A stretch of 53,732 nucleotides of DNA from Oscillospiraceae bacterium (GTDB lineage: Bacteria > Bacillota > Clostridia > Oscillospirales > Oscillospiraceae): positions 1 through 53,732 of the forward strand of contig JAFQBN010000034.1 in assembly GCA_017416685.1 (NCBI GenBank), read 5' to 3'. The position numbers and the translations under genes are program-made. Shown here in pieces: positions 2-8,721 of the stretch. Within the stretch, counting starts at the first letter, position 1, and each line of letters begins with the position of its first letter. Under the pieces are notes generated by a model. The model was given only the letters and a program-made list of their open reading frames with translations, had not been told where the DNA came from and did no database searches.

Positions 2-3000
2 ACTGTCAACCTGACTTTGGCTCTGAGCGAGGACGTGCTGACTGAAGAGGAGGCTCAGAACCCCGACAGCTTCATCACCGTGGACGAGTATGACTACGAC
101 GCGGAGGAGCTGAAGCCTGTCGTTTACGTGGCCGAGGTCAATGGTGTGGGCTATCCCACTCTGGCTGATGCCTTTGCAAACGCCGAGGACGAGGACATCA
201 TCACTCTGCTGACCGACATCGAGCTGAACGAGATGATCGTCAACAGCAAGAAGATCACTCTGGACCTGAACGGCATGACCATCACCGGTACCGATGAGGC
301 TACCGGCAGCTTCGGCCTGATCACCAACCGCGGCGACCTGACCATCAAGGACAGCAGCGCCGAGCAGACCGGTAAGATCACCCTGACTGCCACCAACGAC
401 CGTGGCTGGAACGCTTACTCCTCCGTGGTTTCCAACAACCCCGGCGGCAAGCTGACCGTGGAGAGCGGTACCATCGAGCATCTGGGCGGCACTTCCATGG
501 CCTACGGCATCGACAACCTGACCAACGGTAAGGGTACCTATGCCGAGACCGTCATCACCGGCGGCACCGTTACCTCTGCTTACATCGGTGTCCGTCAGTT
601 CCTGAACGGCGTTGAGGCTCAGAACATTCTGACCATCAGCGGCGGTACCGTCACCGGCGGCAACAGCGCCATCTACTTCCAGAGTCCCAGTGCCAACGCC
701 AACACCGGTACGCTGACGATTTCTGAGAACGCGGCCATCGGCAAGCGCATCTATCTGGGCATTACCAGCGGCACCACCGAGTGGCCGGTCGAGATCTCCG
801 TCGCGGCTGCGGCTCTGGCTGAGGGCGTTGAGATCGTCCACGATCCCATCCCCGAGGGTTACGAGCTCAAGCTGACCGACGACGTTTACGGCGTGGTCGA
901 GGTGACCTATGTTGCCGAGGTCAACGGCGAGAAGTATGAGACTCTGCAGGCTGCTATCGATGCTGCCGGCGAGGGCGACACCGTTACTCTGCTGACTGAC
1001 GTTGAGCTGAGCGAGGCTCTGACCGTCGCTGCCGACAAGGTCATCATTCTGGAACTGAACGGCAAGAGCGTGGCCTACACCAGCACCGTTCAGGGCGAGG
1101 CCATGATCACCAACCGAGGCACGCTGACCATCAACGACAGTGTTGGCACCGGTGTCATCAACTACAACTACACCGGCGCAGCTGATTCCAGCTACGGCAA
1201 GGGCAACTACACCATCTCCAATGGCGGCACCCTGACCGTTAACGGCGGTAAGATCACCATTGCCAACCTGCGCGCTCACGCCAAGTACCCCATTGATAAT
1301 AACAGCACCACCGGCGACGCTGTGCTGGTCATCAACGGCGGTCACCTGTACAACTACAACACCAGCGCCATCCGTATGTTCTGCAACAGCGATACCTACG
1401 AGAACAGCGTCACCGTCAACGGCGGTCTGATTGAGGGCTACTGCGCCATCTGGATGCAGAATCCCTCCAAGACCAAGACCATGAACGGCAGCCTGACTGT
1501 CGCCGGCGGTGAGATCAAGACCACTGCCGCTGCCTACGTCAACGGTACTTCCGAGCTGAAGGATGTTACCTCCAGAATCTACTGCACCACTGAGGGCGGT
1601 AGTTGGAGCGCCGACTCCAAGGTGATCCTTACCGGCGGCACCTTCAACGAGAACGTGGATCTGGCGGAGAACGCTCCTGCGAACATTACTGCGGATGAGC
1701 AGACCGCTTCGTTTAACGGTCGTTTGGAACTGCCTGTTGTCTATGTCGCTGAGGTCAACGGCGAGAAGTATGAGACTCTGCAGGATGCTATCGATGCTGC
1801 CGGCGAGGAAGGCACTGTCACTCTGCTGGATGACCTGACCATCGCAAGCGATCTGAACAACGCTGCAAAGGGTTACTTCAACATCACGGCTGACCAGAAG
1901 GTCACCATCGACCTGAACGGCAAGACCATCACCGCGACCGACGACTCCGCCGGCAACTTCATCCTGTTCTACAACTACGGTGAGCTGACCATGATGGACA
2001 GCGTTGGCGGCGCCAAGGTGAACCTGACCTCCACCATCGACCGCGACTGGAACGCACAGTCCACCATCATCCTGAACCGCGGCGGCGTGCTGACCGTGGA
2101 GGGCGGCGAGTACAACCATCTGGGCGGCACCGACATGGCCATCACCGTCTGCAACAGCGGCAACAGCTTCGGTGATGCGCACCTGTACGTGAACGGCGGT
2201 ACCATCACCAGCACCTACGTCGGTGTGCGTATGCGCATGGCCAACCCTGCTCTGAACGGCAACCCCGGCAACGGCCTTGTTTACATGACCGTGACCGGCG
2301 GTACCATCAAGGGTGAGAACCGCGGTATCTGGGGTCAGATCACCGATGCTGCCACCGATGCTCTCGGCGAGCTGGACATCACTGGCGGCACCATCGAGGG
2401 TGGTACCAATGCCATCAGGATGACTGCCGATGAGAGCGACAATATCCACATTACCATTTCCGGCGATGCGATGGTCAAGGGCGCGCTTGTCGGCGATGTT
2501 GGCGACTATGCTGTCACCGGCGGTACCTTCACGACCGACGTGACCGAGTTCTGCGCCGACGGCTTCACCTGCGAGCAGAATGCCAACGGCACCTACGGCA
2601 TTGTGGCTGAGGAACTGTTTGAGATCACCAGAACCAATATGGCCATGGGTCAGAACCTTAAGCTTCTGTTTGCCTTCGAACAGAGTTGCATTACCGATGA
2701 GGATCTGAGTGACTATGTGGCGAAGGTTTCCGTAGAGTACAAGGATGATCGCGGTACTGTGGAGACCGAGATTGCCGCTGCTGATTGGGCTCGAACTGCG
2801 ATTAGTGGGGTTGCATACTGGGCAGTAACCGTTTCCGATTTGGCTGCCAAGGAGATGGATGACAAGGTAACTGTCACTATCTACAAGGGTGATGAGGCGG
2901 TGAGCAAGCCTAAGACCACAAGTCTGATTGAGTATGGTATGGACAGACTGGCAAACTCCACCGATGACTTGTTCAAGACTACCGTTGTCGATATGCTGAA

Positions 3001-3523
3001 CTACGGCGCCGAGGCGCAGATATACTTCGAGTACAATACCGAGAACCTGGCTAACCGAAAGCTTACCGACGAGCAGAAGTCTTTGGCGACCACTGAAGTG
3101 ACCTTGGATAAGACCATGGAGATTATCAGCGGTTCCGCTGAACATTTTGTTGCGTCCAACGTGCGATTCCAGAGCGACATCACCATGCTGTTTGCTGTCA
3201 GCAGAGAGTCTGCCGCAGTAAGCGCCAAAATTACTTTCAAAAATCATAGAGGCACGGAAGTGAGCGCAATGGACGAGACTCCTACCCAAACGAGCGTGGG
3301 TGGAGCATCCGCCTATGCGTTTGAGTTTACCGGCATGGTGGTTGCGGACATCGATCAGATCATTACCGCAGAATTCTTTGATGCGGAGGGAAATGTGGTC
3401 CTGTCTTTGACCGACAGCCTGGATGCTTATCTGGGTCGCCTGAAGAATACCAGTTCCATGTATAATCTGGCTATTGCCTTCGGCAAATTTAGCACGTCTG
3501 CTTATGCGTTCCTGCATAAGTAA
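2..3523 (+). CDS. Large repetitive surface-type protein, 5' end outside window
   Basis: The reading frame is open to the window edge, so the true start and any signal peptide lie upstream. About 1170 residues are visible. Three modules of roughly 260-280 residues each begin with a VAEVNGxxYxTLxxA motif, near visible residues 38, 299 and 577. They are followed by many short strands with TVTGGT, LTISGG or LDLNGKT turns, which is typical of right-handed beta-helix extracellular proteins. From about residue 870 the sequence changes to two copies of another domain, with the marks LLFAF near 881 and MLFAV near 1054. No LPXTG, SLH or C-terminal anchor is visible. Codon choice also changes near base 2640, from strongly biased to mixed. 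A peptide gene starts 19 bases after the stop. The function is unknown; adhesion or surface display is an inference. Confidence 0.85.
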   Translation, partial: TVNLTLALSEDVLTEEEAQNPDSFITVDEYDYDAEELKPVVYVAEVNGVGYPTLADAFANAEDEDIITLLTDIELNEMIVNSKKITLDLNGMTITGTDEATGSFGLITNRGDLTIKDSSAEQTGKITLTATNDRGWNAYSSVVSNNPGGKLTVESGTIEHLGGTSMAYGIDNLTNGKGTYAETVITGGTVTSAYIGVRQFLNGVEAQNILTISGGTVTGGNSAIYFQSPSANANTGTLTISENAAIGKRIYLGITSGTTEWPVEISVAAAALAEGVEIVHDPIPEGYELKLTDDVYGVVEVTYVAEVNGEKYETLQAAIDAAGEGDTVTLLTDVELSEALTVAADKVIILELNGKSVAYTSTVQGEAMITNRGTLTINDSVGTGVINYNYTGAADSSYGKGNYTISNGGTLTVNGGKITIANLRAHAKYPIDNNSTTGDAVLVINGGHLYNYNTSAIRMFCNSDTYENSVTVNGGLIEGYCAIWMQNPSKTKTMNGSLTVAGGEIKTTAAAYVNGTSELKDVTSRIYCTTEGGSWSADSKVILTGGTFNENVDLAENAPANITADEQTASFNGRLELPVVYVAEVNGEKYETLQDAIDAAGEEGTVTLLDDLTIASDLNNAAKGYFNITADQKVTIDLNGKTITATDDSAGNFILFYNYGELTMMDSVGGAKVNLTSTIDRDWNAQSTIILNRGGVLTVEGGEYNHLGGTDMAITVCNSGNSFGDAHLYVNGGTITSTYVGVRMRMANPALNGNPGNGLVYMTVTGGTIKGENRGIWGQITDAATDALGELDITGGTIEGGTNAIRMTADESDNIHITISGDAMVKGALVGDVGDYAVTGGTFTTDVTEFCADGFTCEQNANGTYGIVAEELFEITRTNMAMGQNLKLLFAFEQSCITDEDLSDYVAKVSVEYKDDRGTVETEIAAADWARTAISGVAYWAVTVSDLAAKEMDDKVTVTIYKGDEAVSKPKTTSLIEYGMDRLANSTDDLFKTTVVDMLNYGAEAQIYFEYNTENLANRKLTDEQKSLATTEVTLDKTMEIISGSAEHFVASNVRFQSDITMLFAVSRESAAVSAKITFKNHRGTEVSAMDETPTQTSVGGASAYAFEFTGMVVADIDQIITAEFFDAEGNVVLSLTDSLDAYLGRLKNTSSMYNLAIAFGKFSTSAYAFLHK
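917..974 (+). repeat. Long direct DNA repeat inside the surface protein gene, copy 1
   Basis: These 58 bases recur at 1751-1808 with a single mismatch (c/a at the 35th base). They encode the start of the repeat module (EVNGEKYETLQ and on to DAAGE). Such near identity at the DNA level would allow copy-number change by recombination. Confidence 0.85.
1751..1808 (+). repeat. Long direct DNA repeat inside the surface protein gene, copy 2
   Basis: Second copy of the 58-base repeat at 917-974. The 834-base spacing is a multiple of three, so deletion or duplication between the copies would keep the frame. Confidence 0.85.
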
Positions 3524-3542
3524 TAGAGAGGAGGATTACCTT

Positions 3543-3662
3543 ATGAAGTTTTATGAAGAGCCTCGTATCGAGGTGCTGAAATTTACAATTGAAGATATTG
3601 TGACTACTTCTTCTTGTCCCGATAACGAACTTGGAGATGAGGATCTGGGCGAGTGGGCCTAA
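3543..3662 (+). CDS. 39-residue peptide, candidate RiPP-like precursor
   Basis: The product starts MKFYEEPRIEVLKF, continues with TIEDIVTTSS, and ends in an acidic tail with one Cys and one Trp (CPDNELGDEDLGEWA). The start is set by a strong GAGAGGAGG site at 3526-3534, eight bases before the ATG. Short peptides with a Y-E-x-P-x-I-E-V front half and a D-[IV]-[IV]-T-T-S motif are, from memory, frequent in gut Clostridia and usually left as hypothetical. The next two genes encode an HPr-kinase-like protein and a PqqD-like protein, families that act on ribosomal peptides elsewhere. A precursor with a leader ending near TTSS and an acidic core is therefore proposed. Ser/Thr phosphorylation is one possible modification. 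No radical SAM, protease or exporter gene lies next to it. Confidence 0.7.
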   Translation: MKFYEEPRIEVLKFTIEDIVTTSSCPDNELGDEDLGEWA

Positions 3663-3674
3663 TCTGTTCCCTGC

Positions 3675-3698
3675 CCCGGCGGGCGAAAGCCCGCCGGG
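3675..3698 (+). promoter_or_regulatory. Perfect 10-bp hairpin with GAAA tetraloop
   Basis: The arms CCCGGCGGGC (3675-3684) and GCCCGCCGGG (3689-3698) pair perfectly around a GAAA loop, 12 bases after the peptide stop codon. No T-tract follows, so it is more likely an mRNA stabiliser or partial attenuator than a full terminator. It would let the peptide be made in excess over the downstream enzymes. Confidence 0.6.
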
Positions 3699-3712
3699 AT
3701 TCCCTCTCAAAA

Positions 3713-3732
3713 CCCCGAGCTCCGGCTCGGGG
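3713..3732 (+). promoter_or_regulatory. Second hairpin with UNCG-type tetraloop
   Basis: The arms CCCCGAGC (3713-3720) and GCTCGGGG (3725-3732) pair perfectly around TCCG, a C-G-closed UNCG-class loop. It lies 14 bases after the previous hairpin, also without a T-tract. Confidence 0.55.
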
Positions 3733-3861
3733 CAGAGGACTGCCAAAAACGCAGTATTCTGCCTCGGGCCGGAACTTTTTTGCCCAAAACTTGACTTTAC
3801 GGGGGAAAAAGAGTATTATGTTAGACATGAAACTATGACTTCGTCGCAAGGAGAAGGCGGT

Positions 3862-4611
3862 ATGACGGAATTTCAGATTCAAATAGCCGGGTACGTGGTC
3901 AACGTGCGGGCTATGTTTGAAAGTACAAAAGAATTCTGCCGGGACTATCTCTGCACCGGTACACCGGACTTCTCTGTGGAGATCACCCCGGAGGACCTTG
4001 TCTTTGAACAGGAGAAGAGCGCCCGGGAGAACGAGCTGGAGGGCAAGTCCGTTCAGCGGCACGCCGACCCCTATCTGGAGACCACCGCCGTGCAGCGGCA
4101 GGTGGTGGAGGGGTTGTTCGAGCGGGACTGCCTGCTGTTCCACGGCTCTGTGGTGGCGGTGGACGGCGCGGGATACCTGTTTACCGCCAAGAGCGGCACC
4201 GGTAAGTCAACCCACACCCGCCTGTGGCGGACACTGCTGGGTGACCGGGCGGTCATGGTGGATGACGACAAGCCCATTCTGCGGCTGACTGACGGCGGGG
4301 TCACGGTCTACGGTACGCCGTGGAACGGTAAGCACCGGATCGGTGAAAATATCAACGTGCCGCTGAAAGCCATCTGCATTCTGGAGCGGGGCGCGGAGAA
4401 TACCATTCGGCCGGCTGCGGCGCAGGAGGTGCTGCCCATGCTGGTGCAGCAGAGCAACCGTCCCCGGCGGGCCAACATGATGGGCAAGTATCTGGAACTG
4501 ATCGACGGACTTGCAAAGAACGTGGCGTTCTACCGGTTGGCGTGCAACATGGACCCGGAGGCTGCGCAGGTAGCGTATGCCGCCATGTCAGGCAGAGAGG
4601 AGGAACCATGA
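3862..4611 (+). CDS. HPr kinase/phosphorylase-like P-loop protein
   Basis: A 249-residue ATPase. The P-loop is AKSGTGKST at about residues 109-117. An upstream LFHGS contains the His that precedes the P-loop in HprK, near residue 94, and an acidic MVDDDKP segment lies near 132-138. Only the C-terminal kinase half of classical HprK is recognisable; the N-terminal ~85 residues differ. Relatives of this type sit in lasso-peptide clusters, where some phosphorylate the precursor. AAGGAG at 3848-3853, eight bases before the ATG, fixes the start; an in-frame TTG much further upstream would overlap the peptide gene and both hairpins. Its stop overlaps the next start (ATGA). It is probably a peptide or protein kinase working with its two neighbours; the substrate is inferred. 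Confidence 0.75.
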   Translation: MTEFQIQIAGYVVNVRAMFESTKEFCRDYLCTGTPDFSVEITPEDLVFEQEKSARENELEGKSVQRHADPYLETTAVQRQVVEGLFERDCLLFHGSVVAVDGAGYLFTAKSGTGKSTHTRLWRTLLGDRAVMVDDDKPILRLTDGGVTVYGTPWNGKHRIGENINVPLKAICILERGAENTIRPAAAQEVLPMLVQQSNRPRRANMMGKYLELIDGLAKNVAFYRLACNMDPEAAQVAYAAMSGREEEP

Positions 4612-4868
4612 AAATCAAAGATGGGTTCGTCCTGCAGGAAGTGGCGGGACAGACGGTGGTCGTTCCGGTAGGCGACGGACTGGATCTGAACATGATGATC
4701 ACCCTGAACGAAACAGGCGCGTTCCTCTGGAAGCAGTTGGAGCAGGAGACAGATGAAGCCACGGTGCTGGCTGCCCTGCTGGCGGAATATGATGTGGACA
4801 AAAAGACTGCAAAAGCCCACGTGGCGGCCTTTGTGGCAAAACTGTACGAACACGGATTTTTTGAGTAA
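4608..4868 (+). CDS. PqqD-family peptide-binding protein
   Basis: An 86-residue protein that fits the PqqD / RiPP recognition element size and pattern. An N-terminal strand segment (VLQEVAGQTVVVPVG) is followed by LNETGAFLWKQLEQETDEATVLAALLAEYDV written across two helices, and by a C-terminal helix ending LYEHGFFE. PqqD-like domains bind leader peptides and present them to modifying enzymes. Its ATG overlaps the stop of the kinase-like gene by four bases, so the two are translationally coupled and probably form a working pair on the 39-residue peptide. A strong terminator follows at once. Confidence 0.8.
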   Translation: MKIKDGFVLQEVAGQTVVVPVGDGLDLNMMITLNETGAFLWKQLEQETDEATVLAALLAEYDVDKKTAKAHVAAFVAKLYEHGFFE

Positions 4869-4873
4869 AGCAT

Positions 4874-4905
4874 AAAATGTCCCACCCTGTAGGGTGGGAC
4901 ATTTT
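4874..4905 (+). terminator. Intrinsic terminator ending the peptide operon
   Basis: Arms AAAATGTCCCACCC and GGGTGGGACATTTT (14 bp) around TGTA, with five T residues from 4902. It starts six bases after the PqqD-like stop. Confidence 0.9.
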
Positions 4906-5084: not shown

Positions 5085-7157
5085 TTATTCCTCTTCCATC
5101 GCCTTGGCGGCGGCGATTGCCTTCTCCTGCGCGGCAGGGGGACAATCCTCGTAGCGGATAAAGTGGAAGGTGTAGGAACCGCGGGCCTGAGTCATGGCAC
5201 GCAGGTCGATGGCGTAGGACATCATCTCGGCCATGGGGACCTCGGCCTCGATGACCTGCTCGCCGCCCTCGATGGGGTTCATGCCCATCACGCGGCCGCG
5301 GCGCTTGTTCAAATCGCCGATGACGTCGCCCATGTAGCTGTCAGGTACGGTGACCTTCAGCTCGCCCACAGGCTCCATCAGCACGGGGTTCGCCTCGGGC
5401 ATGGCGGCCTTGTAGGCCAGCTGAGCGGCGGTCTTGAACGCGATTTCGGAGGAGTCAACGGGGTGGTAGGAGCCATCATACAGAACGGCCTTCAGGTTGA
5501 CCACGGGGTAGCCGGCCAAAGGACCGTGGACGCAGGCTTCACGCAGGCCCTTCTCAACGGCGGGGAAGTAGTTCTTGGGCACGGAGCCGCCGAAGACCTC
5601 CTCGGCGAAGACCATTTCTTCCTCGTCGAAGTTGGGCTCAAAGCGGATCCACACGTCACCGAACTGACCGGAACCGCCGGTCTGCTTCTTGTGACGACCC
5701 TGCTTGGACACGGTCTTGCGGATCTTCTCACGGTAGGGAACGCGCGGCTCCTTCAGATCCACTTCCACGTTGAAGCGGGTCTTCAGTTTGGCCATCAGCA
5801 CGTCCACGTGGATGTCGCCGGCGGCGGTGACCACCATCTGATGAGTCTCGGCGTTGTTGACCACGGTGAAGGTGGGATCTTCCTCGTTCAGGCGGGCCAG
5901 ACCCTGAGCCACCTTGTCCTCCTGACCGCGGGTCTTGGGGGAGACGGCAACCTGATAGCAAGGCTCGGCAAAGGGCAGAGCCTTCAGGGAGACGACCTTA
6001 CGGGTGTCGCACAGAGTGTCGCCGGTCTTGACCTTGTCCATCTTGCCGATGGCGCCGATGTCACCGCAGGACAGGACCTTGACCTCGGTAGCCTTCTTGC
6101 CGCGCATCTCGTACAGGCGGCCCAGCTTCTCGCTGTCGCCGGTGCGGGCGTTGACCAGGGGCATATCGGGGGTGATTTCGCCGGACAGGACCTTGATAAA
6201 GGAGAACTTGCCGTACTGGTCGGCAACAGTCTTGAACACGAATGCAGTGGGAACACCGCCGGGGGAGACCACGAATTCCTCGCTCTCGCCGTCCTGGGTG
6301 GTGGCGCGGTGGTAGTTGCCCTCCATGGGGTTGGGCAGCAGATCTACGATGTAGTCCATCAGCATCAGAGAACCCATGCAGTTGACAGCGGAGCCGCACA
6401 GGACGGGGAACAGGGACAGATCCCGCACGCCCTGACGCAGGCCGGAGATCATTTCGGCGTAGGTGAAGTCCTCGCCGGAGAAGAACTTATCCATGAACTC
6501 TTCGCTGGTCTCGGCCACGGACTCTTTCAAAGCGTCGTTAAACTCGGTGATGACGGTGTCCTTGCCCGTGGGGATGTCGATCTCCACGCGCTTGAGGTTC
6601 TGCATCTCGTAGGCGCGCTTGTTCAGCACGTCGATGATGCCGGTGACCTTCTTGTTATCGTCCCAGATGGGAACGACCACGGGAGCGATCTTGTTGCCGT
6701 AGCGCTCACGCAGGGCATCAAAGGTGGCGTTGTAATCGGAGTTGTCTTCATCGGTCTTGGAGATGTAGATGAAGCGGGGCATGTTGCGCTCTTCGCAGTA
6801 CTTCCACGCCTTTTCCAGACCGACGGACAGGCCGTCCTTGGCGGAGCAGACGATGATGGCGGCATCGGCAGCGCGCAGAGCGGCGACCACCTCACCGGCG
6901 AAGCCGGCGCTGCCCGGGGTATCCAAAATATTGATCTTGCAACCCTTATACTCGATGGGGGCGACGGCGGTGGTGATGGAGATCTGGCGCTTGATTTCCT
7001 CCTGATCGTAGTCACACACGGTGTTGCCGTCCGTGGCCTTACCCATGCGGTCCAAAGCACCGGTCATGTAAAGCAGGCTTTCTGCCAGGGCGGTCTTTCC
7101 GTTACCACCGTGACCCAGCAGGCAGACGTTGCGGATGTTTTGTACAGAATAACTCAT
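5085..7157 (-). CDS. Elongation factor G-like GTPase
   Basis: A 690-residue translational GTPase of EF-G length. It has a P-loop GHGGNGKT near residues 15-22, a G3 motif DTPG near 79-82, and a G4 motif SKTDED in place of the usual NKxD. EF-G domains II-V follow (GGSGQFGDVWIRFEP, SYMGDVIGDLNKRRGRVMGM, and YAIDLRAMTQARGSYTF split over domain V). The unusual P-loop and G4 place it among the EF-G-like paralogues of Clostridia rather than the main fusA. It stands alone, not in a str operon, with its own promoter and terminator. AAGGAG sits just before the ATG. Its exact role in translocation, recycling or stress is not known. Confidence 0.85.
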   Translation of the reverse strand: MSYSVQNIRNVCLLGHGGNGKTALAESLLYMTGALDRMGKATDGNTVCDYDQEEIKRQISITTAVAPIEYKGCKINILDTPGSAGFAGEVVAALRAADAAIIVCSAKDGLSVGLEKAWKYCEERNMPRFIYISKTDEDNSDYNATFDALRERYGNKIAPVVVPIWDDNKKVTGIIDVLNKRAYEMQNLKRVEIDIPTGKDTVITEFNDALKESVAETSEEFMDKFFSGEDFTYAEMISGLRQGVRDLSLFPVLCGSAVNCMGSLMLMDYIVDLLPNPMEGNYHRATTQDGESEEFVVSPGGVPTAFVFKTVADQYGKFSFIKVLSGEITPDMPLVNARTGDSEKLGRLYEMRGKKATEVKVLSCGDIGAIGKMDKVKTGDTLCDTRKVVSLKALPFAEPCYQVAVSPKTRGQEDKVAQGLARLNEEDPTFTVVNNAETHQMVVTAAGDIHVDVLMAKLKTRFNVEVDLKEPRVPYREKIRKTVSKQGRHKKQTGGSGQFGDVWIRFEPNFDEEEMVFAEEVFGGSVPKNYFPAVEKGLREACVHGPLAGYPVVNLKAVLYDGSYHPVDSSEIAFKTAAQLAYKAAMPEANPVLMEPVGELKVTVPDSYMGDVIGDLNKRRGRVMGMNPIEGGEQVIEAEVPMAEMMSYAIDLRAMTQARGSYTFHFIRYEDCPPAAQEKAIAAAKAMEEE

Positions 7158-7357: not shown

Positions 7358-8104
7358 TCAGTTTTCAAGCAGATCTACTGCCAGAGAGGTTTCCGGGCCT
7401 GCGCTATCCACCTCGGCAAGGATCAGCCAGAGGGCCACGTCCGTGTCGCCGGCCTCGGGAACGGTGCGCAGGATGGCAACGCTGTCCTGAGTCAGGGAGG
7501 AGACGGTGTGGCTGATAGAGCTGCTGGGTTCCCATACTGTCACAGCCAGCAGACGGTGGGTGAGGAAGTATTCCTCGTTATAGGTCCGGGCCAGGTCGGA
7601 AAAATCGTTGTAGGGGAATCGTGCGAGGAATTCGGAAAACCCGTCCGCGCTGCCAAACAGGTCGGCGGTTGGCATAAACGAGGTGGACATACCGCCCAGC
7701 CGCAGCCGCTGCTCATTGGAAAAGGACAACTCGTCGGTCAGGGCGGAAGGCACATGGCGGACCATATTGGGTACGCCGCCGGGGGTTTCGGCAGGTTCGG
7801 GCCGGATCAGTGTAAACAGGCCCACGCACAGCACGAGACAGGCGGCCAAAGAACCCAGCCGGCGGAAGATGCGGCGGCGGGCGGCGCGCTGTCCGCGGAT
7901 GGAACACATCACGCCACCGGCAAGCTGGGCAGGGGGTGTGACCACACAGCCGGTCAGGCAGGTGCGGATATTGGCAAGATCGCCGGCAATGGCCCGGCAT
8001 TGGGGACATTCGTTCAGATGTGCGGCCAGCTCCGCATCGTCCGCGGGGGCCAGAGGGGCATCCAGCCGGGCGCTGATTAAGTCCAAGTAACGTTCACAAC
8101 TCAT
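7358..8104 (-). CDS. Anti-sigma factor with zinc-finger N-terminus
   Basis: A 248-residue membrane protein. The first ~50 residues are an anti-sigma (zf-HC2) domain: MSCERYLDLISARLD, then HLNECPQC, giving the H-x3-C-x2-C zinc motif near residues 28-35. One membrane helix follows (LGSLAACLVLCVGLFTLI, about residues 87-104). The outer ~140 residues match no family I recognise. It would hold the sigma factor encoded 44 bases upstream at the membrane until an envelope signal releases it. The transcript probably also covers dusB. Confidence 0.85.
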   Translation of the reverse strand: MSCERYLDLISARLDAPLAPADDAELAAHLNECPQCRAIAGDLANIRTCLTGCVVTPPAQLAGGVMCSIRGQRAARRRIFRRLGSLAACLVLCVGLFTLIRPEPAETPGGVPNMVRHVPSALTDELSFSNEQRLRLGGMSTSFMPTADLFGSADGFSEFLARFPYNDFSDLARTYNEEYFLTHRLLAVTVWEPSSSISHTVSSLTQDSVAILRTVPEAGDTDVALWLILAEVDSAGPETSLAVDLLEN

Positions 8105-8148
8105 GCCGGGTCACTCCTTTCATTTGGTTTCAATCACTTTGACGCAGG

Positions 8149-8721
8149 CTACGGGGAAAAGTTCCCCGTCTCCAGTAAAATTTTTCTCAGGGCGAGCCGG
8201 GCCCGGGCAATACGGGACTTCACCGTGCCGGCCTCCAGCCCCAGTATATCCCCGATTTCCTGATAACTCAGGCCGTCCAGCTCACGCATGACCAATACCT
8301 GCCGGTGTTCCTCGGACAGTTGGGCAAGCCCCTGCTGCAGGGTTTCCAGGCGTTCCCACTTCTCAAATTCGGTGTCGGGGCGGTAGCGCTCGTCGGGGAC
8401 GTCGGGGGTGGAGTCGTCTTCCTCGTCCACCAGCTGCGGCAGCCACACGTCCTGCCGCCGCTTCTGCTTGCGCAGGTGGTCCAGACAGGCGTTGGTGGCA
8501 AGGCGGTACAGCCACGTGGAGAAGGAGCTGTCGCCCTTGAAAAATTTCAGGCCCTTCCAGGCGTTGAGAAAGGCCTCTTGAGCAAGGTCAAGGGCGTCGT
8601 CCGGATTGCCCGTTATGCGCAGGGTCAGGTTGTAAATGCGGGTCTGATTGTCCAGCATCAGCTGTTCAAAGGCCTTGTCATCCCCGGCCTTGGCCCGGGA
8701 CACCAGTTCCTGCTCCGTCAC
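8149..8721 (-). CDS. ECF-type RNA polymerase sigma factor
   Basis: A 190-residue sigma-70 family protein with only regions 2 and 4. Region 2 runs from AKAGDDKAFEQLM to STWLYRLATNACLDHLRK, with the promoter-melting part in between. Region 4 has LSEEHRQVLVMRELDGLSY, then a helix-turn-helix IGDILGLEAGTVKSRIARAR. It resembles SigW-type ECF factors. It lies between dusB and its cognate anti-sigma gene on the same strand. An acidic linker (DEEDDSTPDVPDE) joins the two regions. The regulon cannot be told from the window. Confidence 0.9.
   Translation of the reverse strand: MTEQELVSRAKAGDDKAFEQLMLDNQTRIYNLTLRITGNPDDALDLAQEAFLNAWKGLKFFKGDSSFSTWLYRLATNACLDHLRKQKRRQDVWLPQLVDEEDDSTPDVPDERYRPDTEFEKWERLETLQQGLAQLSEEHRQVLVMRELDGLSYQEIGDILGLEAGTVKSRIARARLALRKILLETGNFSP

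Follow-up and report, generated by a model that had tools for sequence, protein, structure and literature searches.

The window analyzed here is a stretch of 53,732 nucleotides of Oscillospiraceae DNA (contig JAFQBN010000034.1), and our subject is a small gene module on its forward strand, consisting of a 39-amino-acid precursor peptide, an HprK-like P-loop kinase and a PqqD-family protein. The module lies directly behind a giant repeat surface protein, an open frame at positions 2 to 3523 (+) of which 1173 amino acids are visible, its 5' part being truncated by the contig start. Only 19 nt separate the stop codon of this frame from the peptide gene (3543 to 3662, +), which is preceded by a ribosome binding site, AGGAGG (3529 to 3534, +). 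Numbered as in lasso peptides, the leader comprises residues 1-20 and the core begins at Thr21. Directly 3' of the peptide gene lies a GC-rich hairpin with a GAAA loop and without a T-run (3675 to 3698, +; -26.3 kcal/mol, z -4.5), and 5' of the kinase gene there is a promoter-like site, TTGACT-17-TATTAT (3791 to 3819, +), one such site being found against a chance expectation of 0.7. The kinase gene (3862 to 4611, +; 249 aa) is followed by the gene of a predicted leader-binding protein (4608 to 4868, +; 86 aa; Pfam PqqD, 1.7e-19), and a terminator hairpin followed by TTTTT closes the module (4876 to 4903, +; -21.2 kcal/mol, z -5.1). Gene starts and signal peptides were assigned by simple rules of our own. 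A sequence-only reading of this DNA had already pointed out the peptide, the kinase and the PqqD protein with its ATGA overlap, all of which we confirm. It had also assumed a single operon, which the hairpin behind the peptide gene and the promoter-like site before the kinase make doubtful.

A search with the single peptide sequence (E <= 1) matched 13 of 99 genomes, its own included, and some of these matches were located behind surface proteins and beside the kinase, while others looked chance-like. With a leader profile (A2; 20 rows, 15 of which came from kinase loci) and a threshold of E <= 0.01, the peptide was recovered in 73 of the 295 genomes searched within the order, at up to ten copies each. 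When scored with a profile built without the two peptides of its own genome, the window peptide reached 31.7 bits, compared to 12.9 bits for the best of 2000 shuffles. We gathered 107 distinct members from kinase loci, the best search matches and two hand-picked batches of match places, which is a non-random sample. The peptide family is real, and it is conserved in other genomes with the kinase, which supports this part of the earlier reading. The family leader reads YxxPx[IML]..F..ED[VI][IV]T-x-S and is followed by a variable, acidic tail. The conserved columns are Y/F at -17 (105 of 107), P at -14 (78), I/M/L/V at -12 (92), D at -3 (103) and V/I at -2 (104), although these counts are partly selected for, since the peptides were collected via the leader profile. 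A short precursor with a conserved leader and a variable core is typical of ribosomally synthesized and post-translationally modified peptides (RiPPs), and so is a neighboring PqqD-type RiPP recognition element (RRE) protein, predicted here to bind the leader; the YxxPxL-type spacing from -17 to -12 is that of lasso precursors. Of note, the peptides of L054, L261, L262 and L292 combine the same leader with tails of ~90 to 120 residues, and the tail of the L301 peptide carries a repeated unit (DNDFDVGNAYWN / DNNFNVGNTDWN), resembling a multi-core precursor. No title or abstract start found in the literature describes the family, in a search that mostly left out subscription papers.

The kinase was found in 86 of the 295 genomes, and its distribution follows that of the peptide: it is present in 66 of 73 peptide-bearing genomes versus 20 of 222 peptide-free genomes (Fisher 2.2e-39, phylogeny ignored), which leaves 7 genomes with a peptide but no kinase and 202 with neither. 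Leaving out the 18 seed genomes lowered the number with both to 48, the other three counts staying at 20, 7 and 202 (Fisher 4.8e-30, phylogeny likewise ignored). The association of peptide and kinase is thus supported. In a phylum-wide sample of 398 genomes the peptide occurred in three and the kinase (E <= 1e-20) in eight, and all three peptide genomes have the kinase; in one genome from a different class, G732, 96 bases separate the peptide match from the kinase match. We retrieved 588 encoded kinase relatives, the best 80 of which include records titled Faecalibacterium prausnitzii and Ruminococcus flavefaciens, whereas a scan of viral contigs gave no encoded relative. Parts of the module often stay together in relatives, as 80 named kinase loci contained, anywhere in the stretch, PqqD in 60, a signal-peptidase-like protein in 59, an ABC protein in 45, NTP_transf_5 in 38 and the peptide in 36 cases. 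The two 80-locus sets that we used overlap (L045/L215 and L048/L251, for example, are identical contigs); in the peptide, tail and upstream-gene counts, loci repeating a peptide or an upstream sequence were counted once. Judged from sequence, the family is real and widespread, combining lasso-type leader recognition with an HprK-like kinase, and no cyclase was found.

Fold comparison assigns the kinase to the HprK/PEPCK fold. H94, G112, G114, K115 and D136 are conserved and, together with S116 and D135, make up seven of the eight motif residues of the lasso kinase BsfK (H-G-G-G-K-S-D-D), with Ala109 replacing the first Gly. The His, Lys, Asp and Asp residues of lasso kinases are thus present, in line with the HprK-like assignment of the sequence-only reading. 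A kinase profile compared with PDB sequences gave no HprK match, the sole match being unrelated (E 0.09). The PqqD assignment holds as well, and the profile of this family is closest in the PDB to lasso B1 proteins (TbiB1, 5.6e-11; TfuB1, 9.7e-9).

Which residue might be phosphorylated can be predicted from the leader. According to PMC10368454, Tyr(-17), Pro(-14) and Leu(-12) are typical of lasso leaders, BsfA has Ile(-2), and the HprK-like BsfK phosphorylates Ser3 of BsfA in a reaction that is greatly accelerated by the PqqD-like BsfB1. With Tyr4 of the window peptide set at -17, Pro7 falls at -14, Ile9 at -12, Asp18 at -3, Ile19 at -2, Val20 at -1, Thr21 at +1 and Ser23 at +3, without a gap. 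Ser23 (codon at 3609 to 3611, +) is therefore placed at core +3, equivalent to the proven BsfK site, and is the predicted phosphorylation site; it falls within the TTSS segment proposed before as a possible target. Ser occupies core +3 in 99 of the 107 peptides, and since 27 of the 107 contain no Ser or Thr downstream of it, the +3 Ser is the sole acceptor there that is common to nearly all members.

The gene ahead of the 107 peptides encodes a predicted secreted protein in 44 cases, a long open reading frame (ORF) cut by the end of the stretch in 23 and another protein in 23, while 11 have no such gene and 6 lie at an edge. Fifty-two of 101 peptides have such a secreted or long cut-off ORF no more than 60 nt ahead of them, versus 150 of 1856 other genes, this background being drawn from the same loci and not from whole genomes. 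The window surface protein itself aligns over 243 aa, at 53% identity, with its counterpart preceding the L097 peptide. The suggested link to surface proteins is thus recovered in the wider family.

The leader profile finds two strong peptide copies in the window's own genome, and the kinase only one match. The second peptide (G000:C24) follows an SLH protein with three SLH stretches, and 3' of it are a second PqqD gene, a signal-peptidase-like protein, an ABC exporter and a Polysacc_synt_2 protein. The module had been described as minimal and without a transporter. Both statements are true of the window module but not of the genome, since the second locus holds a peptide, a PqqD protein and an ABC exporter; with the signal-peptidase-like protein added, and with the parts often kept together in relatives, the notion of a minimal system does not stand. 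The 1.86 Mb genome contains 46 SLH-domain matches, spread over many contigs and many of them in ORFs of ~2000 codons.

Taking together the existence of the family, its distribution alongside the kinase, the gene content and layout, the conserved leader and Ser, and the surface-protein context, we propose half of a RiPP-type system, in which lasso leader recognition operates without a cyclase and serves PqqD-assisted phosphorylation of Ser23, export and a role at the surface. We consider this somewhat better than an even bet. For leader binding, phosphorylation site, cleavage, export and function we infer the following course. Bound by the PqqD protein through its YxxPxI leader, the 39-aa precursor would be presented to the HprK-like kinase for phosphorylation at Ser23 (core +3). 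Cleavage of the leader and export of the acidic core are probably carried out by the signal-peptidase-like protein and the ABC exporter of the second locus, and the product may act at the cell surface with the giant or S-layer proteins encoded ahead of the peptides. The peptide is most likely a cell-surface phosphopeptide, and the interpretation given in the sequence-only reading is, as a whole, partly supported. What weighs against this proposal is that a triple change of the BsfA Tyr, Pro and Leu left phosphorylation running, as stated in PMC10368454.

A different role for the peptide is suggested by its tail. A secreted protein lies within 500 nt upstream of the kinase in 46 of 153 distinct kinase loci; a low-complexity linker is present in 32 of these proteins, 19 of which, by our own count, end in an LP-containing, ELPFVP-type sequence. 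The two 80-locus sets provided 47 loci with a peptide, of which 29 also have a secreted protein near the kinase (28 after duplicate removal). Over these 28 loci, the best matches between the peptide tail and the last 60 residues of the secreted protein summed to 674 versus 481 +- 25, and none of 20000 permutations scored as high (p < 5e-5). In five loci (L097, L110, L109, L254 and L260) the true pair outscored all 27 others, and eight of the 28 rank in the top tenth. Identical stretches are DNGTGWG in L097 and NDIADPWG in L110, both in SLH-domain proteins, and PYETPED in the L109 lipoprotein. The leader end is repeated just before the tail motif in the C-terminal region of secreted proteins of L100, L110 and L237 (EDLATS, EDLTTS and EDITVS), a feature of 4 of 51 proteins. 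The main substrate could accordingly be the C-terminal tail of surface lipoproteins or SLH proteins, with the short peptide as a leader-bearing copy that acts as competitor, signal or immunity counterpart. However, the lipoproteins have no leader, no special match is seen in 12 of the 28 loci, and many share a general ELPFVP-type ending. When the protein encoded immediately before the peptide was compared, its match to the tail did not exceed chance (66 pairs, 788 versus 744 +- 26, p 0.052). Nor was a matching tail found in the window genome: DLGEW is confined to the peptide, and nothing similar stands at the ends of the proteins read in SLH loci. We regard a tail substrate as unlikely, though it fares best among the alternatives to the phosphopeptide proposal.

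The module could also derive from the cluster of a genuine phosphorylated lasso peptide, either as its remnant or as one part of a split arrangement, the cyclase and B2 peptidase genes being located at other places in the genome. The leader spacing and the PqqD protein are lasso-like, and genes for a kinase and a nucleotidyltransferase are known to serve in lasso peptide tailoring (PMC9266682 and PMC8498205). The window core moreover has D7 and E9. Lasso cores start with Gly, rarely Ala, Ser or Cys, and carry Asp or Glu at positions 7-9. In contrast, 76 of the 107 peptides have Thr at core 1, and just 69 have D/E at 7-9 despite their acidic tails. For an asparagine-synthetase-like cyclase, the own genome gave partial PF00733 (Asn_synthase) matches only, covering 39 to 62 of 354 positions, in proteins that we take to be MnmA- and GuaA-like. 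Among the recurrent neighbor families of both 80-locus sets, only part of which were library-checked, no cyclase was read either. A lasso remnant thus seems improbable.

Less probable still is a joint action of the HprK-like protein and NTP_transf_5 that places a phosphate-linked sugar on the +3 Ser, making peptide or tail a phosphoglycosylated anchor for surface polysaccharide. There is precedent in pseudomycoidin, whose PsmK/PsmN add phosphate and then hexose; PMC9266682 and PMC8498205 describe PadeK and PsmK/PsmN, with a nucleotidyltransferase homologue putting hexoses on the phosphate. NTP_transf_5 is present in nearly half of the named loci, polysaccharide chain-length proteins adjoin the module in L110, Polysacc_synt_2 lies in the own second locus, and the two NTP_transf_5 genes of the own genome sit among glycan genes (flippase, pyruvyl transferase, UDP-glucose dehydrogenase and Polysacc_synt_2). 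However, NTP_transf_5 is not part of the module, the own copies are located away from the peptides, and polysaccharide neighbors are in the minority. Finally, it is very improbable that the core Cys (SSCP) is cross-linked by a radical SAM enzyme with the kinase step being secondary: SPASM/radical SAM maturases adjoin Cys-bearing peptides in L046 and L058, and Cys occurs in 15 of 107 tails and SCP in both own tails, but a radical SAM family recurs in just 7 of the 80 named loci, the module has no radical SAM gene (the genome's other radical SAM genes were not searched), and the only further PqqD-like match of the genome lies within the N-terminal part of a radical SAM-like protein (L212, G000:C1:79697-79870) that is presumably a SCIFF maturase.

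Extending the phosphopeptide proposal, we tentatively suggest that gut and rumen Clostridia make a class of phosphopeptides without a cyclase. Short leader-bearing peptides, encoded at scattered places in the genome behind giant S-layer-type proteins, would be phosphorylated, and perhaps sugar-decorated, on one Ser by a central kinase, and their cores would copy the C-terminal tails of surface lipoproteins and SLH proteins; the soluble peptide and the tail on display might then form a matched surface pair. For a kinase family that is common among gut and rumen bacteria, the analysis gives a substrate residue that can be tested. According to PMC7533575, HprK, PqqD and nucleotidyltransferase occur, in a lasso context, in about 58, 46 and 30% of the rumen genomes analyzed. 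If the proposal is true, lasso-type leader recognition and phosphorylation occur apart from lasso folding, and RiPP chemistry would be linked to S-layer-type and lipoprotein surfaces; a role in recognition or anchoring there is suggested by the matched tails.

The module is adjoined on the opposite strand by an EF-G-like protein of 690 aa (5085 to 7157, -), with EF-G domains by Pfam, and beyond it lie an ECF sigma factor and, next to this, a zinc-finger protein (zf-HC2) that probably serves as its anti-sigma factor (7358 to 8721, -).

Compared to known systems, the window kinase shares fold, P-loop, and His and Asp residues with HPr(Ser) kinase/phosphorylase and PEPCK, but it differs in having its own N-terminal part and a GTPWxGK motif and in its genetic context, and reaches 17.8 bits with the HPr(Ser) kinase NCBIfam equivalog, for which the cut-off is 240. 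The HPr-rel-A/B systems also have an HprK-related kinase, the A system with a PqqD partner, yet the scores are far under the cut-offs (15/200, 18.3/35 and 18.4/200 bits for TIGR04352, TIGR04353 and TIGR04355). The best NCBIfam match of the kinase is ScmC, and the SynChlorMet cassette (ScmC/ScmD) shares the pair of HprK-like and PqqD-like proteins; here too the scores stay well below the cut-offs (24.9/125 and 23.5/100 bits). The phosphorylated lasso systems (BsfA/BsfK/BsfB1, paeninodin PadeK and pseudomycoidin PsmK/PsmN) have in common with the module a YxxPxL leader of equal spacing, a PqqD-type leader binder, an HprK-like kinase with the His/Lys/Asp-Asp residues and, frequently, a nucleotidyltransferase and an ABC exporter, and BsfA also shares the Ser at core +3. 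Unlike in these systems, no cyclase was found and core 1 is Thr instead of Gly. A signal-peptidase-like gene is located where lasso clusters have B2, and, different from lasso clusters, the precursors are often encoded behind giant surface proteins and in some relatives share their tails with surface proteins.
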